Positions 1,560 to 39,486 of a DNA stretch of 64,000 bases are shown in pieces (position 1 is the stretch's first letter; each line of letters opens with the position of its first letter). The translations under genes were made by a program, and so were the position numbers. Source of the stretch: Pisaster brevispinus (lineage: Eukaryota > Echinodermata > Asteroidea > Forcipulatida > Asteriidae); NCBI GenBank assembly GCA_023634235.1, contig JAMKCF010000022.1, forward strand, positions 1,612,001 through 1,676,000, read 5' to 3'. Below the pieces are notes generated by a model. The model saw only the letters and a program-made list of their open reading frames with translations, ran no database searches and was not told the DNA's origin.

Positions 1560-2068
1560 GGTGGATTATGCGATTGCATATCCGCAATAGCGCCCTCTAG
1601 CGTCGGTTACTCTCACTAATGTTTTTGTGAGGGCGGGGAGGCGAGGATCGATCAACCTTTCGCTTTTGGCTGGACCGTCTAACTCTGCTGCTGGGCCGCG
1701 ACAGCTCCCAATGTATTTTCCTCATTATTTCATGCCTCTTCCATGAGCTGGCTAATAAATAGTTAAGTTGTCATGATGCGAGCATTTTTATAACTTAAAT
1801 ATGAATCGGCTGAATCTGAATAATATATTCGGCAAAGCGTCCCAAAGGAAACATCACACCAACTTGCGTAATAAGTTTGGTTTGCAGGTCACTAGGGTGC
1901 GGGTGATGTTGATGTTTTATTTCCCTAAAGCAGACTGAATCTGAATTATATAGTCGGCAAAGAATATCGCTGGCCGATTGAAGTGAGACATCCTTGGAGA
2001 GATGATAACATTGATCTACCGCCAGAAGAACTAACCAGTTTCTTTTGTTCTCTTCTTCATTATAGGTG
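1560..2068. other. Non-coding flank with a short direct repeat
   Basis: About 26 bases reading roughly CTGAATCTGAATAATATATTCGG at 1813-1838 recur with small changes at 1936-1961. A minus-strand frame spans 1795-2121, but it crosses the end of the downstream transposon and reads the two repeat copies in different frames, so I do not call it a gene. Confidence 0.4.
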
Positions 2069-2125
2069 CACGGCTGTTTCGCTCCCATAGACCGTGCGTA
2101 AAAAAGTATTAACAAACGCACGGTG
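2069..2125. repeat. Left terminus: inverted repeat plus subterminal hairpin
   Basis: The 12-bp terminal repeat is followed by ACCGTGCGT (2091-2099) and, after 16 bases, its exact reverse complement ACGCACGGT. The A-tract AAAAAAGTA sits in the hairpin loop. Such subterminal inverted repeats are common transposase-binding sites; that use is inferred here. Confidence 0.6.
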
Positions 2126-2161
2126 GTGTTTGTTCACTCCAGTGACGCACGAACCAAAACC

Positions 2162-2172
2162 AAGATGGCGGC
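2162..2172 (+). promoter_or_regulatory. YY1-like motif
   Basis: AAGATGGCGGC matches the known YY1 binding consensus, which often lies at or just after transcription starts in animals. It falls 93 bases inside the element and upstream of the transposase start codon, so the element may carry its own promoter. Confidence 0.4.
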
Positions 2173-2613
2173 CCCCATAAACGTTAAAAACTATACGATC
2201 GGACGATCGTCTTTCACCATTTCTTTTTAAATACTCTGAAACTTTCATCACCAGGAATACAGTGCTTTTTCTTAGTTATTTTATATTTGATAAGTTTCTG
2301 ATGATTAAAATGTTTTAAATAAAAAAAACGGAAAATCTGACGTCTTTTGTGTAACTTTTTGTGTTATTTTATTTTAATCTCTCATTATCAAAACACTTTA
2401 GAAAAACGTCGAAATTAATTTCCTCTCCAATTATACAGATATACACAAACGTGAATACAAATATTTACAATCATGTTTTTATTAAAATTTAGGTTACAAA
2501 ACTGGGCCAGAAAATTTTAGAGACTTATAGGCGTTTGTTTGGGGGAACTTTGTACGCCGCCTTCTGAAATGAACGCACGGGCTGCGTGGTAGTTGTGTGT
2601 CAATCAATACGAG

Positions 2614-2621
2614 TGACGTCA
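2614..2621 (+). promoter_or_regulatory. CRE-like site
   Basis: The perfect palindrome TGACGTCA, the CREB/ATF consensus, lies 107 bases before the transposase ATG. A second TGACGTCA lies near the right end, around 7901-7908. A regulatory role is inferred from the motif and its position. Confidence 0.4.
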
Positions 2622-2727
2622 CAGAAAGCCCGCGGAATTGAAAAAAAGTTTTCTGTGTACAAACGAATAGGCATTGTTTGAGGTGCTTCACAGCAGCCAT
2701 CTATGCATGTTTTATACACAGTGAATA

Positions 2728-5700
2728 ATGAGCAGCTATGATTTCCATTTAAATATTCTTCATAAATTGTGCCGTTGTTGTGGAAAAAGGCTAACACACA
2801 AAGCTCAGGATACAAGGAAACTAGTAGAGGCTTCAAGCTGTAGAAAAGAAATTTCTCTGATTTTTGGAGTAAACACTTGGGAGGACAGTAGTGATACGCA
2901 CCCAAGGTATATTTGTTTAAACTGTTCGAGAAAAGTTAGACATTTACAGGCAGGGACTAGGGACTACACAACTCCAGATACACCAGCAGTAGACTGGACA
3001 ACACATACAAGAAATAAACGATGTAAAATCTGCGATTTATACCACACTAATTCTAAAACTGGACCACAACCTAAAAGTAGGACTAGTACCAAGCCGAAAT
3101 CTGCCGTGGTAGAACTTCCTTTTAACATCTCTGCGAGCAACATATTTGAGCACCTATCCCAGACAACCCAAGACGTTCCGCTCGAAAGTTCTCCAAATTT
3201 AGAAGTATTTGGAAGGAAAGCTGACGAACATTCTGTCTTTATTTGCTCAATTTGTCAGTGTATTATTTCTAAACCCTCAGTGCAAACACCCTGTGAGCAT
3301 TATTTTTGTGCAGTTTGTTTGTCCTCATATTTCAAATTTAATCGATCAACTCTACTCAAATGTCCATCTTGCATGTCACAAATTCAGTTCACTGATATTC
3401 GAGAAAGTCCACGAATTTTGAATGTACAGCTTCAAAACTTGGATGTAGCTTGTGGTCTCTGTGGGGTCATTGGTCGACTGCAAAGCCTAGCAACCCATTC
3501 GTGTAATGCATCACCGAAGTTGAATGACCCACAAAGTAAACACCGATGTACTGTCGTAGAGAGTGACGCCCCAACTAGTCCCGAGGATAGTCTCGCTGAA
3601 GCTGCTGCAATCCTCCGCAAGAGTGCCCTGTCGCATCCCCATGGGCAGCCAATTCCCCTGGCAGTTGAGAAGGCAGCTGATCGCTGGACCTGGATCAAGC
3701 TAAACCAGAGAGGAAAGGTTGCCACGTTAGAAACAGGAGGCAGGGTGAATATTTACATCAACAAATCCTCAGTGTTTTATAAATTGGTGTCACTGTCAAG
3801 GAATTGTTTTAATGTCAATGAACAATGAATATGATAGACAATGAAAATTAATATTTATTCCTTTTTACACAGCCTGCTCAAATACGCCAGGTTTCTAGCA
3901 CGAAACAAGATGAGACGAACAGTTCATGTGAAAAGGAAACTTCCCCAATGCCACCCAACAAGGCCTTAGCTATGATGAGGGATGCTCATTTGGCATGGGA
4001 CCAAGTGCGGAAAATACGACGGTATGTACATAATTAGAATTAACTTTGAAAACAAACGGCAATATTTAATATATCATAAAAAGTTATTCAGTACATGTAT
4101 TTCATCATGTCATACATTACCCCTTTTTCAGCTACATGCCGACTCCAACAATTTCGTCCGAAAGAGCTATGCGACGTAGCCAGAAAGAACTTCTTAAGAA
4201 TTATGTTGAGGGTGAAATGGTTGCTCTGCAATTTCCCAGCTCCAAAGCAGATGCAATTGCTGGTTATATACTTCAAGATGCACCCTTTGTGAGAGTAAAT
4301 GATGTTTGCGCCATGATCTTCGACTATCTTGACCGGCTGGACCTGTAAGTAATATTTAAATAAATAAAAACATAATAATTAAATAGATGCTGTTACAAGA
4401 CATACATGTAGTACCAAATAACCGTTACTATTATCTATAATTACTGACTTTTTCTTCAATTTAAACAGGACAAACTCACTCACGTGGCATAACGGCGTAA
4501 TCCCTGAAAATGAAATATGGGTGAAGTTCGGCGGGGACAAGGGTGGATCATCATTCAAAATGGCCTTCCAAATCATCAATGTAGTTCACCCCAACAGCTT
4601 AAAGAACACAGTCACGTGTGCATGCTTTTGTGGAGATGACAGCTTCTACAACCTGATGAAAACCCTTCCTCGTGTAATCGACCAAATCAGTGATCTTGCC
4701 AAGCTGGAATGGAGGTAGTTATAATAATTTGGTAATAATAGTTATAAAAACAGGATTCATTCAACCGGAGTGACCTTTATAATTAGTATTTAACAAAACT
4801 TTGTTTGATTTATCTATTTCCAGAGGGCGTAAATTTCGTCTTTTCAGCTTTGGCGATTATGCATTCCTCACGAAGCTGTATGGAGTATGCAGCTCTAATG
4901 GTACGTATACTGTGCCCATGACATGTAAACGCTATAGCACAAAGATTATTAAATTTTCAACCATGCAAAATATCATACAATTCCATTCATACTACCTTTT
5001 CTTTTTATTATATTTGTCTCTTTAGCCCGATATTGCTGCATTTACTGCAGAATAAGCAAGACCGATATGCAGCGACCACTATGTGAGCGACAAGCTTCAT
5101 TTAGAAGGTCACTGCAGTCAATCAGGGAGCAGCATCAGCTCTTTGTTGAAGATGGGCAGAGGAGAAGCAGGGCCAAGGATGTGTCGTTTAGCATAGTGAG
5201 CTCCCCTATGCTCCCTGTTGAACTTGATTATGTAAGTTATACTTGTAGTTTCAACGTAAAATCATTTTACAAAATGTGTTTAAGAAATATTTTTGTTTAA
5301 TTACTTGCAAAAAAACACTTACCCTTTTTTCAAACAACTTGATATAGGTGATCGTCCCCACACTTCACATATCCCTTGGAGTATTTAAAAGGTTGTATGA
5401 TCTCTTCGAGCAAGCGTGCCATGAGCTAGATGTAGCCATCCTGAAAGAGAGAGCCATTGCCAGAGATATAGATGACAACTTTAAGGATGATTTAACGACC
5501 GACTTTGACAAGAAAGTTGACAACGAGCAGTGCAGGAAGAGAACAATCAAAAGAGATCTTCAAGAAAAGCGAGCCCAACTTGAAGACCTCGAAGAGGACA
5601 TTCCCCTTCCCCTTCTACACAACCATCATGGAGTCAACATATTGAGGGCAGACATTGCTGAAATGGTTTGTAAATCTATACTTTTCTGTCATTGTGATTT

Positions 5701-6667
5701 AACTTGTGAGCCAATGAATAAATAAATTATTTTTTCTTTTTTTTCTTTTAGGAAAACAACCAGGGGATGACTGAACTGGAGTTTGGTACAGGGCCAATTG
5801 CCAGTAGTTTGGACGGTGTGCTGAAAAAACATAAAGTGAACAGACAGGCTTACCATGGGAAGTCTTTCGTGGGAAACCACGTTAACAAGTGTTGTCAGGT
5901 ATTACCATAACCCTCTCAGTGAAATAATTGCAAATACGTTTAATCAAATTTGATTAAACTTCCATTTTTAAGCGATTTCATAAATTTCAATGAACTTGGT
6001 ACCTTTTAGCTTCAACCTTATGTACTGCTATCATGTCCTTCACAGATACTCGTTATAGATGCCCTCACGTCTCAACCCCGACTGATGACCGACCAACTCC
6101 CACTCGATGATTTGACTCTTGTAGCATCTGCCACAATAAGAAGGACTTCGGCAGAGATAGGTCACAGATTCCATGAAGCGTTTTCTTGTTTCGCAGATGT
6201 GCACAAAGCCATAAACCACTGCAACCCTATCACGCAATCAGACATGGAACGAACAGGTAAGAATCAACAGGCTTATTTAAATAATTAAAAATGAAATAAA
6301 AAAAACACTTAAATAAATAGATCACTTTGCATTATTTTAACATAATTACAAATGCACACAATTTTCATCTTTTTCATTAGACGTGTGCATAAAACAGTTC
6401 CTACGTGTTTATCGGCGATGCTTCCCCAATGCAAGCATTACGCCTAAGCTTCATATGTTAGAGGAGCATACCATGGAACAGCTGCGGCGATTCAAGGTTG
6501 GTCTGGGGCTCCTGAATGAACAAGGCGGTGAGCTTTTGCACACCGAATTCAATAGAGCTGGACGAGCAGTGCACGGCATGAAGGATGAGCTTCAGAAGCT
6601 AATGAGTATCATGCGACGACATCTGACGACCACCTTTCCAGAAGTGCATGCAGAAATGCAGAAATAG
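2728..6667 (+). CDS. RAG1-architecture DDE transposase, ten exons, 956 aa
   Basis: Exons: 2728-3744, 3873-4021, 4132-4344, 4469-4714, 4824-4900, 5026-5231, 5348-5665, 5752-5898, 6046-6256, 6381-6667. All introns are GT-AG, phases agree at every junction, and the total is 957 codons with stop. The N-terminal part matches RAG1 in order: a CRCCG motif (15-19), HPxxxCxxC (to C66), CKIC (99-102), a C3HC4 RING (C173, C176, C189, H191, C194, C197, C212, C215) and a CxxC...HxC finger (242-259). The core has FGGDKGG (D483), an FGDY motif (D553), CxxC at 572-575, a TLHxxxG motif near 641, HxxxxH (886, 891) and EQGGE (E908 or E912). These fit the RAG1 catalytic triad and its C2H2 zinc site. It probably cuts and rejoins the element's ends in the nucleus. 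No inactivating change is visible. It could be an active transposase or a domesticated copy. Confidence 0.85.
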
Positions 6668-7969
6668 AAATATATAAATTAGTATGCCCGAAGCAAATGA
6701 TTAATTGAAATTGAATGTAGCATCATTAACAAGGCAAACACTATATATGCCCCTTCGCATAAAAATGAAAACATAAGATAATTTGTTACAACTAAAAAAT
6801 CATCTACAGTGTTAACAACATGTATTGTTTTATGGCGACATGACATGATGTAGGCCTATGTAACAAATGCGTGTTAAATTAAATTTAGAAAACTTCAAAA
6901 ATTCAATGTAGGCTGTTTGTATTTTGTACATATGTAAATAAATACCAGTGTTGTTTTTAAATTATCTAAAATGATTCATGTTCTAATTCTGCAAATAAAA
7001 TCTGTTGAATTTTTTCTAAATTAAAATAAAATTTGACCACCTTCACCAATGCAATGTGTCTTCCTTTTCTTTATTACCTCTATACAGTTGGAATATCTAG
7101 GTCCCTACTTTTTTATTTTATAAAATTATTTAATTAATTAAATTAAGAAAACTTGATATTCATACTTTAATTAAGTTTAATTTATTTAAAATTAATTAAT
7201 TTTAAAATAAATCCAAATTGTATAGATTAAATCGATGTTGGTTGAAGGTCAATATAAAATATAGGCAAGATCATGATAAGAAAGATCAGAGCAGAGCATT
7301 GTCTGGGCTCATGAAGCATTTATAAACCCATAAACCATAACACATGCATAACCTACCCCATGCATGCCATGTATAATATACATGTAAACAACACGTACAT
7401 TGCACGTGTACATACCCGATAAGCTACGTCCTCGTGTACCGCATCATGCTGTGTACACACACAACGTGCGTTCTGTACGTGTTGCTATTATATTGATTCA
7501 CGAAACTAAAAATATGACCATTTTCAATCATCCGTAATCATTGGTATTTATGTTGGCCCTTTCTTACCTTTGGGATAAAACGACTCTTGAAAACGTTATC
7601 TAACCATATGTAGACATCATTTTTTCACAGAATTGTCGAACAATGTTGAAAATCGGCATTAAATTTGCAGAAAATCGCGAGTTATGGCTTTTACGCACAA
7701 CGCGGTCACATGTACCTGAACGCCCACCCAGTTCTATAAGTAAACAAAGGTCACCGTCTTTAAAAACTGTTTATTCATGTTATTCATGTTTATTCATAAG
7801 ATTTTCTTCAGAAATTATGCAAATTTTAATAGCTGTCCAATCAAAACCCCACAAACAAAAAGGGGTCAAACGCCCATTCATGAATAGCCGCAAAGCCATC
7901 ATGACGTCACGAATAGGGTTTTAGGCGTTGGCACAATCTGACCAACAGAGGGCGTACTTTTTTAGCTGT
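6668..7969. other. 3' part of the RAG1-like element, no second gene
   Basis: AATAAA polyadenylation signals lie at 6937-6942 and 6994-6999. The stretch 7110-7215 is almost pure A/T, with ATTAATTAAT palindromes. A 93-codon frame at 7643-7924 is not recognisable and has no kelch or PHD features. I see no RAG2-like partner on either strand. Confidence 0.55.
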
Positions 7970-7981
7970 GAAACAGCCGTG

Positions 7982-8529
7982 GGTGGCAATCAATTATTCC
8001 TGTGGATAATTATTGTAATTAGCTAGCTCATTATTGAAGCCCATGGCGCCGAATTGTGACGCATTCTAATTTTCTGGACTTCACTGCGTGTACAATGCTC
8101 CAACACTCCACTGGTATTAATGTAACAAAACATAATTAACATCTGGCTTCTTCACTAATTAAAGAAAGTATCGTGGCAATCACCAGGCAGATATCTAATT
8201 TCCAACCACCTTGTTTGTGCATGAGGAGGGGGCGGTGGGCGGGGATTGGGTCCCACTCAGCCTGATAGACTCTGCTACAGTCGACTCCTGTCACAACAAG
8301 GTCCTGGGACTGGCCAATTTTATAACAGGAACGTTGTTACAAGAGGACACAAAACAAAGAAACAACACAGAGCAGAAATGAGATTCGGGAATTCAAAATG
8401 AAGTCTTTATAAACAGAAACTCGTTATAAAAGTGCTATCGAACGTTTACAATTATTCCATTGCAGAGACCGATTGTCTCAGAATGATTATAAATATTTAT
8501 ATGCAAATTCGCCCCACAGCAAGGCTAAG
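7982..8529. other. Non-coding, possible repeat debris
   Basis: No gene seen. The phrase around 8282-8350 about a GACTCCTGTCACAACAAGG core, with its later ACGTTGTTACAAGAGGAC echo, reads like an eroded interspersed repeat. Confidence 0.3.
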
Positions 8530-8859: not shown

Positions 8860-9614
8860 AAATATCTATCTGTAGAAAAGACAGCGGGCAGATGCAATAA
8901 GGACCAAAACTGACTGTCTGATTTTGAAGACTAGTAAAATTAGTTTTTTTTTAATGTAAAAGCCTGGATTTATTTGTGCTAACTGTGTGATCTTGAGCCG
9001 TGTTTTACACCGCACGATTTTCCCACACGATGATAAACCCAACAAAAAAAGTATGCACATTATTTTTTTTAATCAATTGCCTTGAGGGCGCCCTTCATAA
9101 ATTAACAGGTTGTTTTTTTCTGGTCAAGTTTGAAGAAACGCATGGATGGATGCACACATTGCGTGCGTATTATGTGTGTCCGTCCGTTGTGTCGGGGCGC
9201 CGTCCGCTTTAACGACGTCGTGGGATCGTACACACACGGTAATTCGTACACACACAGAGAAACGTGCACAGACGATATGACGGTGCTGTTGAATTTTAAC
9301 AAGTTTGCTATAAATGTTAGTACTCTACTGCATTCAGCTCTCATTTTACTGTAAAAACTTTCAATATGTCTCGTTGAAGTCATGCTGAACTAAGGCTACA
9401 AATAGTCAGCCATCAAACTATATGAATGTGTGGCCACTTTTTGACATAATTGGAGCAGTACTTTCAGTTTCACATTGTTTTCAGTGGCACAGTGACATCA
9501 GGTGTGACATCTGGGAGTAATACAATTAACCACCGCACCGTGCGTGAAACAGTTGGCCGTTGGGAGACGGTTTTCCCCCCGGTGTAGCGAGTGGGTTGCC
9601 CGGTCGTCTTCACC
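8860..9614. other. Non-coding, upstream of the claudin-like gene
   Basis: No gene found. The overlapping frames at 9000-9383 on both strands lie over a CA/TG-rich stretch and show no domain. A palindrome ACGACGTCGT occurs near 9211. The promoter of the gene starting at 9615 should lie near here, but no TATA box is obvious. Confidence 0.35.
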
Positions 9615-9897
9615 ATGGCTTTCGCAAAAACTTCCACTCTATTGTTGGCCCTTTTCTCCGGGTTTGCCGCATTGGTACTCAATGCCGTCGCCATCAGTTC
9701 GCCGTATTGGACCCAGACAAACTTCAGTGGTTCTGTCCGGAACTATTACATCAATGGGACGGTGGAAAACCCCGTTCCAGTGCTGATTCGGAACCGAGGA
9801 CTGTGGGTATTTTGTGGGTTTGTGTTGAATGCAAACTACACTGGCGATTTTAGTGTTGAGGATGTTTCAACTCCAAGCAGCCAAGAACCGCTGGATG
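9615..9897 (+). CDS. Claudin-like gene, coding exon 1
   Basis: Encodes residues 1-94: the first membrane helix and most of the first loop, including GLWxxC. The donor is GTAAGTG after a split glycine/alanine codon. Confidence 0.8.
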
Positions 9898-12800
9898 GTA
9901 AGTGTTTGGTGTTGCCACAACAGGTTGTTTTCACAATGTGCTCGTTAATTTAATGTTATTGTTTTTGTTAAACATGTTGTTATTGTTTTAAGTTAATTGT
10001 ATTTTAATTGTCATGGGGTTCAAACTACCACTATTCAAAGATTAAGAAACATTAAGAAATGTACATTTGACACCAAATCAAATTTTCACAATGTGGTTTG
10101 TTAAGTTAATTGTTTTATTCGAAAATATTGTCATCATGGTGAAAAAAACCCAACATTATAATTATAAAAAAAATGATGAAAATGTTCATTTGCCACCAAA
10201 TAAATCCCAAACTGAATGGAACAGTCGACCTGCAGAAGTAATTGATTCAAACTCAACATAAAAACTCAAATCTGCAGCCAAGCGCCACATGGAGCGCAAT
10301 TACATACATAAGTCAGTCTCGCTAGCACATGCGCAATCTGAGGTGATGGACCCAAGAGGTATCTGGCGGATTATTTTAACAGTCCTGAACAGAAACTAAG
10401 TTTATGTTTGCTTTGGAATCCCTCACAGTAATCACTCTTCTGTTATTTATTATCATTGCAACGAGCTTTGTCACTATAAATTTTATTGTTTGATGCTATT
10501 TAAAGAATAATTCATCTTTAATAAAACAACAAATCAAAAAGAGATTTCATGTTGGGAGGCCTACGTACCAGTTTTACCACAAACCTTAACATTACAGTTA
10601 TCGACTTTGTATTGCCATCATACATGATTTAGTCTTAAATACTTCTTACATAAAATGAATGTTATACATGAAATGATTGAACTTTAGATACATTGTAATA
10701 ATACTCAGATGATAACAAAAATGCAATAAGCTTAGCCAATATGTGATTTTATCATGCATGATTTAGTTTTAAATACTTCTTACATACATGTATATTGAAC
10801 ATGTAATACATGAAATGTATGTACATATTGAACTTTAGAATAATTTCACATTGTAATAACAAACAAATAATTTTTATACATTATTCCAATATCAACTGTG
10901 ACAGTGATTGTGACAAAATCAACTTGACACAATTCGAGCCCCCAAAACTTAAAATGTTCTGACGCTTCAAGCAGCTAATGTAAGCACATGCAATATAAAC
11001 CATAACAAATTGGCTATATCATTTTGCATTGATTTGTTGTACAACGTGAATAAGTGACAGGTTAGTATTACACTGAGCATTTAATGCCTTTTATCCCTAA
11101 GGTGATAAAAGGAATTATTGCACTAACTTGTATCCAATCGGTACCATAATAGGCACCCAAGGGCATCTCAAAGTGCTCATTATTTTTTTTAAAGGTATGC
11201 AAAGCTGCATTTGAAATATACGACCCATCTATTCACAGCACCATGTAGCGGTTTACAAGGTGCTTTGGCGCAATCCACAGCCAACTATACCACAAAACAA
11301 TGGGGCGAACCCCTTCTCTTAACAATTTAATAGGGCCTAGTGTACTGGGTTCTTTTACATTACACAACACACGGGACCAACAGCTTAATGCCCCATGATC
11401 CAAAGGATGAAGCAGTAGAGGTTAAGTGCCAAGACCGGGACTCGGACTCACACTCTGCTGGTCAGACATGTCAGAAGCACTAGAGTTGGGGGAGTGCAAT
11501 TTTTATGAGATGGCCTAACATCACAAGGCCGGATGTCCAGTTCAAGGTGAGGGCTACACTTAAGTGATTTGGGCTGTTGACCCAAATCAACTGTCACCAG
11601 GAGCACGTTGCCACCTACTCCTGGTGCTGATGAAACAGGGTTACCCCCTTCACAGTCCGTGAGGATGTAGGCATGGTATCATCCACTTAGGAGCCTGGCA
11701 GGTAGAGCAGAATGCACTACCTACCCAGCTTTTTACGAAGCAATTATGTTTAAGTGCCTTGCTCAAGGACACAAGTGTCATGACCGGGATTTGAACCCAC
11801 ACTCTGCTGCTGACAACACCAGAGCTTGGGTCCGGTGAACTAGACCGGTGAACTACAAATGTAGACATATCTGGGCCACGACACTCACAATGCGCTTGTC
11901 TTGACCACTCGGCCATGGCACACCACATGTATTCTGACATGCATGACAAAGGGAAAATGTTGATAACTTTATAGTGAGTACCATTCAATGGCAAACAGGT
12001 GCACGATTTTGATTGAAAAGTCTCAAGTAAATTAAATGTACAACATTAGGATAGTTGCTGTGATGGTAACTCTCCGATTCCTGATAGGATATTTACACAG
12101 TCATCACTAGTATAAAAACAGCTCTTTTTAATACATGTACATGTACATGGCGGTAAGAATCTACTGTATCTGCTGAATTTTTATACTTGTTCTATGGGTT
12201 TCATGTCAAAAATGCACATAACTTTGAATCAAGCCATCTTGAAAATCCACTTCTTCTTTTTTTTCCCCGTTAAACTTATGATGAAAAACATGACTGTTCT
12301 CTCATTTCTTAGTGTACAATAACAGGCTTGTGAGTTGTCTTGATTTTTTCTTGATTTCATGAATTTTCATTTGCTTCCTTTGGCCTTGACATTTTCTTGT
12401 AAGACATGTAAGAGATGAACTCGCCATCACAGGCCGGAGACAAAAGACTTGGCTCTGATCTTGGTTTGATCATTTACATCAAGCCTGTAGATTTCTGCTT
12501 GTAGGGGGTTGATGTAACGAGTCAATCAACCTCTGAAATAACATCCTATTTATTCAGGGAGTTTCATCTCCATACAAAGGGGATATTTTCATCAAATTTT
12601 CAGCATTTTCATTTATGTACAGTCTTCTAACTGATACATTATTCATCAGGTCAGAGGTCACAAGCCTTCAGGATATTATTCGCCCCCATTTTCATCTCTG
12701 CCTTGCTGACTTTTGGCTTTTAAATACAATCCCACACTCAAGATGCTGTTATGGTTCGATAGAAAACGCTATTGACCTGTCTAACAGTATTCTGGTTAAC

Positions 12801-24800: not shown

Positions 24801-27800
24801 AACCTTCTATATGTCCCCCTTTTGTTTGTACTTTTTAGCAAAAGCTCCCATTGGTTTTATACACTTTTCAACTGGGGACTTCACCCAAACAGGTAATGTA
24901 TTGTCTTTTGTAGGTTCCTGGTTTGAATTCTACCCAATCCAACTTCATCTTCCACTCTTGTTTCACTGTAATGTTCTGTTAGAGCTTTTGAACTGTTTAG
25001 AGCAAAAGCGCTAAACTTTGGACACTGTGTCAAGATAAATTGATTATATAAACATTCCAGAATCTTGACAGACATCTACAGTACAGTGTAAAATACTGTG
25101 TGATAACAATGCATGTATTAATTATAAATTAAAAATGTACTGCCTGAATGAGTACCAGTAACAATATTGACTGTGTGGGTGTGTTTTGGGGGTTAGGTGC
25201 TTGGACTTGTAACCAGCATTAGTTGGTTCTTCATATACCGAATCCTCAGTTCTAAGAAAGAACCAAGAACTTGCAGATTGCATGGTTGTCTTGTTCCAAA
25301 CTACCTAGAACAAGATCATTTGGAACTATCCATAATCTTAGAGTGACCACCTGTGCTCCAAGTTTACAAGCCAACTTGTAGGAAAAAAGGAAATTTTTAG
25401 ATAATAGTCATGTAGGCATATACTCATTCTGGTTGGATTCCTGGTTTGAATCCTACCCAAAGATGCCTACAAGGTTTTTTTCACAGGACTCGGCACACCC
25501 ATGGAAAAATGTACCAATCCTGCATGTAGTTTACGTGTAATGCACACGAAGCACAAATAATATTCTATCCTTGATGCAAATTTTACATCTAGTATTAAAA
25601 GCTTTTTGTGTTCAAAAGAATGTACACTTTTGCACGCCTCGTTTGCATCATATGTGCATTCTTTATTTAAACACAACAATTAATAGGATTCATGCATGTA
25701 GTTTGCATGTAATATACACCGGAGTCTGGCAATCCAATACACCCTGTTGATTGTGTTATGCTGTACATACAATCCCTGACTGAAGCGACAGCCTGTGTCA
25801 TGCATCAATGACATTTTACATTACACATGTCAGGGTTCTGCTCGAGCTGTCAAGGTTTTGTCAACAGTTTTGTTTTCTATTCTGTCCCAATTCAAATTGA
25901 CTTTTTTTTTCTCTCTCCCCTAGACGGCCACCATGCACCCAACTTGATCTTCAGTGGGTTTGCTGATGAATGTTCATGTTTGTATTAGCTATAGGGTCAA
26001 TACGAGAGCGTGAATGCAACTGTTAGTTTTTCTATTTTATGAAGGTATAGTGACAGGCAATGCCAGGATTTACCCTTAACTTTATCAGTGACTATAGTTA
26101 GCGGGAGCATTTAACTTTGTCGTTTCACTAGTCCGCCAGTTTTTTCCTCGGTTCACGTTTCATATTAAATAGAGATGCTAGCCAGCCGGACCACTTGGAG
26201 TGAATTTTAATTGGTCCTTGGTGTTTTAAGTACATTTTATTGTGTAGCATTTTTCCAGCAGACCACTGTTAAGTCCCAAGTCTTTCAGGGCAAGTCTCAA
26301 GCCAAAATAGTCAAGTCTAAAGCTCCAAAATGCTGTGACTCAAGTCCCAAATTCCAAATTGCTTTGACTCAAGTCCCAAGTTCAAAAATGCTATGACTCA
26401 AGTCCCAAATTCCAAATTGCTATGACTCAAGTCCCAAGTTCCAAAACACTACGACTCAAGTCCCAAGTTCCAAAATGCTGTGACTCAAGTCCCAAGTTCC
26501 AAAACTCTATAACTCAAGTCCCAAGTTCCAAAATGCTATGACTCAAGTCCCAAGTTCCAAAACGCTATAACTCAAGTCCCAAGTTCCAAAACGCTATAAC
26601 TCAAGTCCCAAGTTCCAAAACGCTATAACTCAAGTCCCAAGTTCCAAAACGCTATAACTCAAGTCCCAAATTCCTAAACGCTATGACTCAAGTCCCAAGT
26701 TCCAAAACGCTATGACTCAAGTCCCAAGTTCTAAAACTCTATAACTCAAGTCCCAAGTTCCAAAACGCTATACATGTGTAACTCAAGTCCCAAGTTCCAA
26801 AATGCTGTGACTCAAGTCCCAAGTTCCAAAACGCTATAACTCAAGTCCCAAGTTTCAAAATGCTATGACTCAAGTCCCAAGTTTCGAAACGCTATAACTC
26901 AAGTCTGACTTAAGTCCATTGTCTCAGACTTGAATACCCACCTTTGTGTTTTGTCAGTAAGGTCAATCGTGACACGACCTCTCATCCACTGAGATTTTTA
27001 CTTTTTAAAAAGATTTAATGTACAACAAAGCGTTTAAACTATGTATGCGGGGTCCATGGGTTTGAATCCCACCCAAGTAGCCTGTGGATATCTTTTTTGT
27101 AAGACTCCGGAAATAATAATAACGTGCATTACAAAAATGCCTTTTTATTGCTACAATTTAGTTAAGCTCACCTGCTGGTACAGTTGCTACGTATCATAAC
27201 AAAATCACTGACAATTTAGGACTTTTCACACTGTCCAAAATCTCAGGGTCGGAACCGGTTCCGAACCGGAGATTTTGTTCACCCCGTTTCACACTGTAAG
27301 AATTTCAATCCCCCTCCGATCCGGGTAGCATGCTCTAGCCGGATAGAAATCAACCCTGGCAGGGACCAGGGTTGAAAATCTAAATTCGGATTGAAATTGC
27401 ATTTTTCGTTATACGGTTCACGCATTAGCCATGTTAGCCGGTTCACGTAAAGACCAGTGTGAATGTTGCTTATCTCTGATCCGTGTCGAAAAGAAGCGAG
27501 GCTGAGCTGGAGAGGACCCTGGTAGGTTTCAATGCGGTTCGAAATGGAGGTAGTGTGAAAAGGCCTTTTGTTTTCAATAAACTCTTCCAAAAACCAATAA
27601 TATACATTTAATGTTCTATGTAATTTGCATCCAAACATGTGAGAACTGAGATAAACCTCAGCTCATAAATGTTCCTCACTATCCCCCCAAAAGTGGGGCA
27701 TCATAGCCAAGCAGTCTAGGATGGTGGATTCAAGTTATGTGATTTACTGAATGTGGGTTTGAATCCTGGCCTGGTTAGTCGCGATGCTTGTGTCCTTGAG

Positions 27801-38936: not shown

Positions 38937-39486
38937 AACGTGATATTATTTTACCACACACCGCTTCACATGATATCATTTTACCACACACTGTGACGTG
39001 CTATCCTTTTACCACACTGTGTCATGTGATATAATTTTACCACCCAACGTGTCACGTGATACCATTTTACTTCACACTGTGTCACATGATGTAATTTTAC
39101 CACACACACCCCGTGTCGCATGATATCATTTTACCACACACCATGTCGCATGATATCATTTTACCACACACCATGTCACGTGATATCATTTTACCACACA
39201 ACGTGTCACGTGATATCATTTTACCACACACAGTGTCACGTGATATAATTTTACCACACACTGTGTCGCATGGTATCATTTTACCACACACCATGTCGCA
39301 TGATATCATTTTACCACACACCATGTCGCATGATATCATTTTACCACACACCATGTCGCATGATATCATTTTACCACACACTGTGTCATGTGATATCATT
39401 TTACCACACACTGTGTCAGGTGATATTATTTTACCTCACACCGTGGCACGTGATATAATTTTACCACACACAGTGTCACGTGGTAT
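38937..39486 (+). repeat. 30-bp satellite array, about 18 units
   Basis: The unit reads GATATCATTTTACCACACAC, then CATGTCGCAT with variants (GTGTCACGTG, GTGTCATGTG). Most units carry the palindrome TGATATCA, often ATGATATCAT. Because the unit is a multiple of three, both strands are open for over 100 codons, giving ten-residue repeat peptides. Nothing supports translation. The left third is the most diverged, so the array probably grew from the right. Confidence 0.95.

Follow-up and report, generated by a model that had tools for sequence, protein, structure and literature searches.

A young, mobile Chapaev-type transposon with a RAG1-like transposase in the sea star Pisaster brevispinus

How did RAG1, the enzyme by which vertebrates cut their antibody genes, come by its N-terminal half? 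The question is raised by a gene in the sea star Pisaster brevispinus, within a window of 64,000 nucleotides (contig JAMKCF010000022.1, positions 1,612,001 to 1,676,000). An earlier note on this DNA had described it as an invertebrate transposase with the full RAG1 domain layout and proposed profile searches and a structure prediction as checks. We conclude that it is very probably the one recognised gene of an autonomous, recently mobile 5.9-kb transposon of the Chapaev type, and that its ten exons encode a DDE transposase of 956 residues.

Rebuilding the gene from the window gave one open frame of 956 residues in ten exons, with GT-AG borders at 9/9 introns. This bears out the frame-consistent ten-exon gene of the earlier note, and the residues that it had singled out (D483, D553, C572/C575, H886/H891, E908 and E912) are all found at the numbers it gave. 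For the third acidic residue we favour E912 over E908, going by the RAG1 sequence. The splice junctions are probably correct as judged by homology, because full-cover homologues, an A. rubens match and the block edges in a second family of elements (below) agree with the model. Two Asterias amurensis homologues of 1025 and 989 aa each give 100% query coverage, the 989-aa protein being 49% identical to the 956-residue protein, and an A. rubens prediction is 93% identical over 53% of the query, in the C-terminal half. In L023, a copy from the second family, tblastn with the window protein gave ten blocks with edges near the nine junctions; the deviations are one block that runs about 20 residues beyond junction 636 and a next one that ends 14 residues before junction 742. 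The homologues P0001 and P0005, referred to below, represent clusters with 5 and 20 members.

The unit 2728-6667 that was first proposed holds for the gene and falls short of the element, a DNA transposon of 5,913 bp at 2069-7981. Its ends are formed by 12-bp inverted repeats that match exactly, CACGGCTGTTTC, and each is bordered on the outside by GGTG, the 4-bp target duplication. When the flanks were Markov-shuffled 300 times, 12-bp repeat pairs arose 1.93 times per region irrespective of duplication, and 0.01 times per region if a duplication of 4 bp or more was also required. The boundaries are settled because two further copies sit at other sites. L021 (5,914 bp, duplication TCCA) is 99.87% identical to the window element, while L020 (5,957 bp, duplication TTCG) is 99.96% and 99.39% identical over two aligned pieces and has 44 extra bp in its 3' non-coding part. 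All three copies encode an identical 956-residue product free of internal stops, and their sole coding difference is silent.

These copies come from a genome-wide count of the pattern CACGGCTGTTTCRC, which occurs at 11 places that form five end pairs and one single end (the reversed-pattern control gave 3); since it is based on one 14-base pattern, the copy count is a lower bound. Two of the pairs make up a second family, L022 and L023, of 7.05 kb. Its copies are 98.8% identical to each other, with duplications CCTT and TCTA. The ends and the gene plan are as in the window element, the protein blocks are 33-60% identical to those of the window, and exon 1 with its Chapa and RING parts is stop-free in both copies. 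A third family is represented by L024 (1-4763), with one recognised end and a CGCCCTCT motif at its 3' end.

The copies decide against domestication, in which the host would retain a gene of Chapaev origin for a cellular function. Such a gene would suit the intact ten-exon frame, the full-length A. amurensis homologues and the 93% identical A. rubens core. It is at odds with the perfect ends and duplications, with three sites that have different duplications and a divergence of only 0.04-0.6% among full-length copies, and with a second family whose two copies behave in the same way. We reject it on the copies and give it almost no credence. The window element is a young mobile transposon and not a domesticated gene, a conclusion drawn from near-identical copies at different sites with different duplications.

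To which family does this transposon belong? The core matches DUF1280 (PF06918) over residues 371-538 (E 2.3e-18, 67.1 bits, cut-off 25), as do 5/5 members of our homologue profile A1. DUF1280 is described as the domain of Chapaev transposases, and RAG1 has been grouped with it in clade II (PMC3985635). As hallmarks of Chapaev, PMC4079192 gives the motifs C(2)C, LH and H(4)H, CAC..GTG ends and 3-4-bp duplications. All are present here: C572/C575, H643 in PTLHI, H886/H891, CAC..GTG ends by way of CACGGCTGTTTC in 3/3 copies found, and duplications of 4 bp in 3/3 copies found (GGTG, TCCA, TTCG). The C(2)C and H(3-4)H motifs are reported as common to EnSpm, Mirage, Chapaev, Transib and RAG1 (PMC12730594, 2025). 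The Chapaev3 subgroup, for which a TWA duplication is the rule according to PMC4079192, is ruled out because none of the three duplications is TWA.

The group name goes back to Repbase Reports 2007, as cited in PMC4411706, and that 2015 paper already has Chapaev transposases with a Chapa domain, a RING and a core in print. Compared with published Chapaev, known to us by description, there is no categorical difference: the DUF1280-type core, the CAC..GTG ends, the 4-bp duplication and the order Chapa then RING are held in common. Further traits of the element, which published Chapaev may or may not share, are its 12-bp repeats, the additional finger and the GGRP that follow the RING, and the differing subterminal 5' and 3' sequences.

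A more direct link to RAG1 would exist if the gene belonged to the RAG1L/ProtoRAG (RAG transposon) lineage proper, i.e. were directly orthologous to RAG1, an invertebrate gene with the N-terminus of the vertebrate protein. The equal domain order, the match to the RAG1 central non-core domain (CND) and the top structure matches described below speak for it. However, going by sequence the core falls under DUF1280, and PF12940 (RAG1 recombinase) does not appear among the 8 Pfam families listed for the 956-residue protein at E up to 10, a listing in which the HMMER filters discard most matches above about 0.1, although two RAG1 pieces used as a positive control were recognised (E 1.3e-78 and 2.5e-63). 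All three copies found have duplications of 4 bp instead of 5, scans of the non-coding parts brought no second gene to light, and echinoderm RAG1L is reported to be without RING/ZDD (PMC7204232), whereas the window transposase has a RING. We consider membership of this lineage very improbable. The proposed profile searches yielded the DUF1280 match for the core and none to PF12940.

The search for a second gene covered the parts flanking the gene within the element, of 659 and 1314 bp. The two longest open reading frames (ORFs) with an ATG in the 5' part lie on the minus strand and have 68 and 60 aa, and six frames of 42-71 aa gave no Pfam match below E 0.13. In the 3' part the longest ATG ORF has 93 aa, and ten frames of 43-106 aa gave one sub-cut-off Pfam match (E 0.015) and none to RAG2 or kelch. 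A linked convergent RAG2-like gene was thus not recognised among the ATG ORFs or the 16 frames compared with Pfam, a search that a gene of many tiny exons could escape. An AT-rich imperfect palindrome (75%) lies in the 3' part at 7176-7231, and the 44 extra bp of L020 are nearby, at about 7164-7171. In the 5' part AA(G/C)ATGGCGGC is found at 2162-2172 and again in the L023 element, starting 94 and 101 bp inward of the 5' end, respectively. We take this to be a YY1-like motif, and it is possibly a promoter.

Unlike ProtoRAG/RAG1L, the window element has a 4-bp rather than a 5-bp duplication, no recognised RAG2-like gene and another core family. Transib is described as without the N-terminal RAG1 part (PMC7204232) and with 5-bp duplications as typical (PMC4411706); unlike Transib (HzTransib), the window element has N-terminal domains and 4-bp duplications. 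With vertebrate RAG1 it has in common the CND, the RING plus finger, the predicted core fold from DDBD to CTD and the stretch from the second acidic residue through CxxC to LH (D2-CxxC-LH). Unlike vertebrate RAG1, the transposase is outside PF12940, its nonamer-binding domain looks shortened and is not demonstrable by sequence, no RAG2 is seen and the element is mobile.

In the predicted model of the A. amurensis homologue P0005 the core takes a RAG1-type arrangement, DDBD-preR-RNH-ZnC2-ZnH2-CTD. Foldseek ranks 1-38 are all RAG1 and BbRAGL chains, which also head the superpositions of the model; those on RAG1 have 15-16% identity. In sequence, homologue profiles and a shuffle test indicate a remote likeness to RAG1 in the D2-CxxC-LH stretch. 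The predicted fold lends support to the grouping of Chapaev with Transib and RAG at the fold level.

Ahead of the core, the Chapa domain is recognised here via its RAG1 counterpart. PF12560 (RAG1_imp_bd) matches residues 4-119 (E 1.5e-4, 21.8 bits), none of the shuffles (0/5000) score as well as the homologue profile of the CND piece against RAG1, and profile A1 finds RAG1 chain 21wb_A at E 0.0014. A model of exon 1 superposes on RAG1 1rmd over model residues 150-277. In this RING fold match RAG1 is level with TRAF6/LNX2, and the RING part does not single out RAG1. GGRP falls at residues 337-340, split between exon 1 (GGR) and exon 2 (P), and the helices downstream of it appear shortened in the window protein, with homologues compared alongside.

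Several points weigh against our reading of the element and its transposase. The PF12560 score is just under the curated cut-off of 23.3, and the exon 1 N-terminal model is weak (pLDDT 70, pTM 0.40). The core model belongs to P0005 (49% identity, pLDDT 74, pTM 0.57) and not to the window protein. The RAG1 nonamer-binding and DDBD pieces are unconvincing by sequence, with 89/5000 and 559/5000 shuffles scoring as well, and a RING-free profile of the two (A3) found no match among PDB sequences at E up to 10. The profiles in the shuffle test consist of homologues without the window protein, and the test is not selection-independent, because the RAG1 pieces were chosen from earlier profile matches. 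The order of cysteine-rich N-terminus (CND), RING, extra finger and DDE core in the earlier note is nevertheless confirmed; its full RAG1 layout stands for these parts, the nonamer-binding domain not being demonstrable by sequence. The premise that invertebrate relatives match either the N-terminal part or the core is outdated: both parts are reported for amphioxus and molluscan RAG1L (PMC7204232), and both are in the 2015 Chapaev.

What, then, can be said of the origin of RAG1's N-terminal half? In a published model it came by fusion from an N-terminal-only element, N-RAG-TP (PMC8355894), in which case the RING and CND of Chapaev would be an independent acquisition. The window element differs from N-RAG-TP, as described in that paper, in that it joins the N-terminal part in-frame to a DDE core. 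RING domains occur widely, the RING model fits TRAF6/LNX2 as well as it fits RAG1, and the Chapaev homologue P0003 has a Chapa part and no recognisable RING, all of which would fit separate gains. Against this, the Chapa domain and RING are said to be absent from other known transposable elements (PMC4411706), and the CND stands ahead of RING and core in a RAG1-like order and resembles that of RAG1. We hold the fusion model to be possible, if doubtful; it concerns the origin and can be true together with an autonomous Chapaev-type transposon in the window. A homology search with residues 1-275 gave 347 candidates and none at E up to 1. This is no evidence that the N-terminal part is rare, because even P0001 went unlisted.

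It is also conceivable, and in our judgement unlikely, that the complete RAG1 chain (CND, RING, finger, a GGRP end-binding stretch and core), as well as two unlike ends, was present as early as the ancestor shared by Chapaev, Transib and RAG. The latter part is suggested by two diverged families of this genome, in which the 5' and 3' ends agree over 12 bp and beyond them show the same differences. If this is true, RAG1 inherited its N-terminal half and the two-signal rule instead of gaining them by fusion, and present-day elements like the one in the window could reveal the role of that half in transposition. Ends like recombination signal sequences (CACGGCT, a spacer and an A-rich box) were tried as well: in the window element TAAAAAAGTA follows at a distance of 23 nt at the 5' end and of 10 nt at the 3' end. 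This candidate was dropped, as the second family has the A run at the 3' end only and the run is broken in the one known end of the third family. It is kept only in the form of unlike ends, because the A run is not consistent across families.

By analogy with RAG1 and related transposases, an RNase H core, with D483, D553 and in all likelihood E912 as its acidic residues, would cut at the CAC/GTG ends together with a zinc module (C572/C575 and H886/H891). Metal-ion catalysis at the DDE triad would be followed by cut-and-paste joining to staggered cuts 4 bp apart. A flank hairpin, as formed with RAG and Transib, may also arise. The Chapa/CND domain would bind DNA or aid nuclear entry, the functions described for the RAG1 CND (PMC3124419). 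The RING plus finger would serve dimerisation, ubiquitin-ligase activity that regulates the transposase, or both, and the GGRP stretch may aid end binding.

The layout was already described in 2015 (PMC4411706), and the window element is a further member of Chapaev, unusually intact. What we add is a young three-copy family with its ends, the 5'/3' end differences common to two families, and a model-based comparison of the Chapaev core fold with that of RAG1; earlier comparisons of this last kind were not searched for by that wording. Of 136 papers with at least one of the terms, ranked by how many they contain, the 20 listed first include none that names both GGRPR and Chapaev. A young, intact, multi-copy element with a RAG1-like transposase is a practical test object for RAG1 origins. 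Whether transposition needs the CND and RING is answerable in cells, and the answer would bear on the purpose of RAG1's N-terminal half before immunity.

Table 1. Features of the Chapaev-type element (window positions) and genomic positions of the second family
Feature	Position	Strand	Details
Target-site duplication GGTG, left copy	2065-2068	.	L021 and L020 carry TCCA and TTCG there
5' terminal inverted repeat CACGGCTGTTTC	2069-2080	+	subterminal CT.CCATAG stretch next
5' non-coding region	2081-2727	+	ORF and Pfam scans, second gene not recognised
Exon 1	2728-3744	+	start codon, Chapa/RAG1-CND-like domain, RING, extra C2HC finger, GGR of GGRP
Chapa/RAG1 central-non-core-like zinc domain	2737-3084	+	residues 4-119
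RING finger	3244-3372	+	residues 173-215; PF00097 E 6.9e-5; fold match
Extra C2HC finger, ZFA-like, after RING	3451-3504	+	C242, C245, H257, C259
Exon 2	3873-4021	+	P of GGRP, shortened nonamer-binding-like stretch, first helices of DDBD-like part
Exon 3	4132-4344	+	DDBD/pre-RNase-H-like part (DUF1280)
Exon 4	4469-4714	+	acidic D483, codon 4536-4538
Exon 5	4824-4900	+	acidic D553, codon 4855-4857; column pairs with D of RAG1 chain in profile alignment
Exon 6	5026-5231	+	CxxC 572-575 (5037-5048); columns pair with CxxC of RAG1 chain in profile alignment
Exon 7	5348-5665	+	PxLH motif (H643), long helical insert
Exon 8	5752-5898	+	conserved YHG...GNH (Y776-H785)
Exon 9	6046-6256	+	
Exon 10	6381-6667	+	HxxxxH H886/H891 (6452-6469), E908 (6518-6520), E912 (6530-6532), stop codon
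3' non-coding region	6668-7969	+	subterminal AAAAAAGTACGCCCTCTG (minus strand) adjoining element end
3' terminal inverted repeat CACGGCTGTTTC	7970-7981	-	
Target-site duplication GGTG, right copy	7982-7985	.	
Second-family copies	L022 = G000:C22:6395659-6402708; L023 = C85:245736-252784		

The window has a few further features. Upstream, 508-1559 is occupied by an element of 1,052 bp whose inverted repeats are exact over 32 bp (CACAGACATATAATACC...) and which is flanked on either side by an 8-bp duplication, GGTGGATT; it looks like a non-autonomous transposon of hAT type, the class being assigned from the 8-bp rule. A claudin-like open frame at 9588-9950 (PF13903 E 2.8e-4, sub-cut-off) lies 1.6 kb downstream of the transposon on the same strand and, going by its sequence, is perhaps the first exon of a host gene. 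Tandem arrays are found at 26311-26905 (20 copies of a 29-bp unit) and at 38938-39486 (18 copies of a 30-bp unit).
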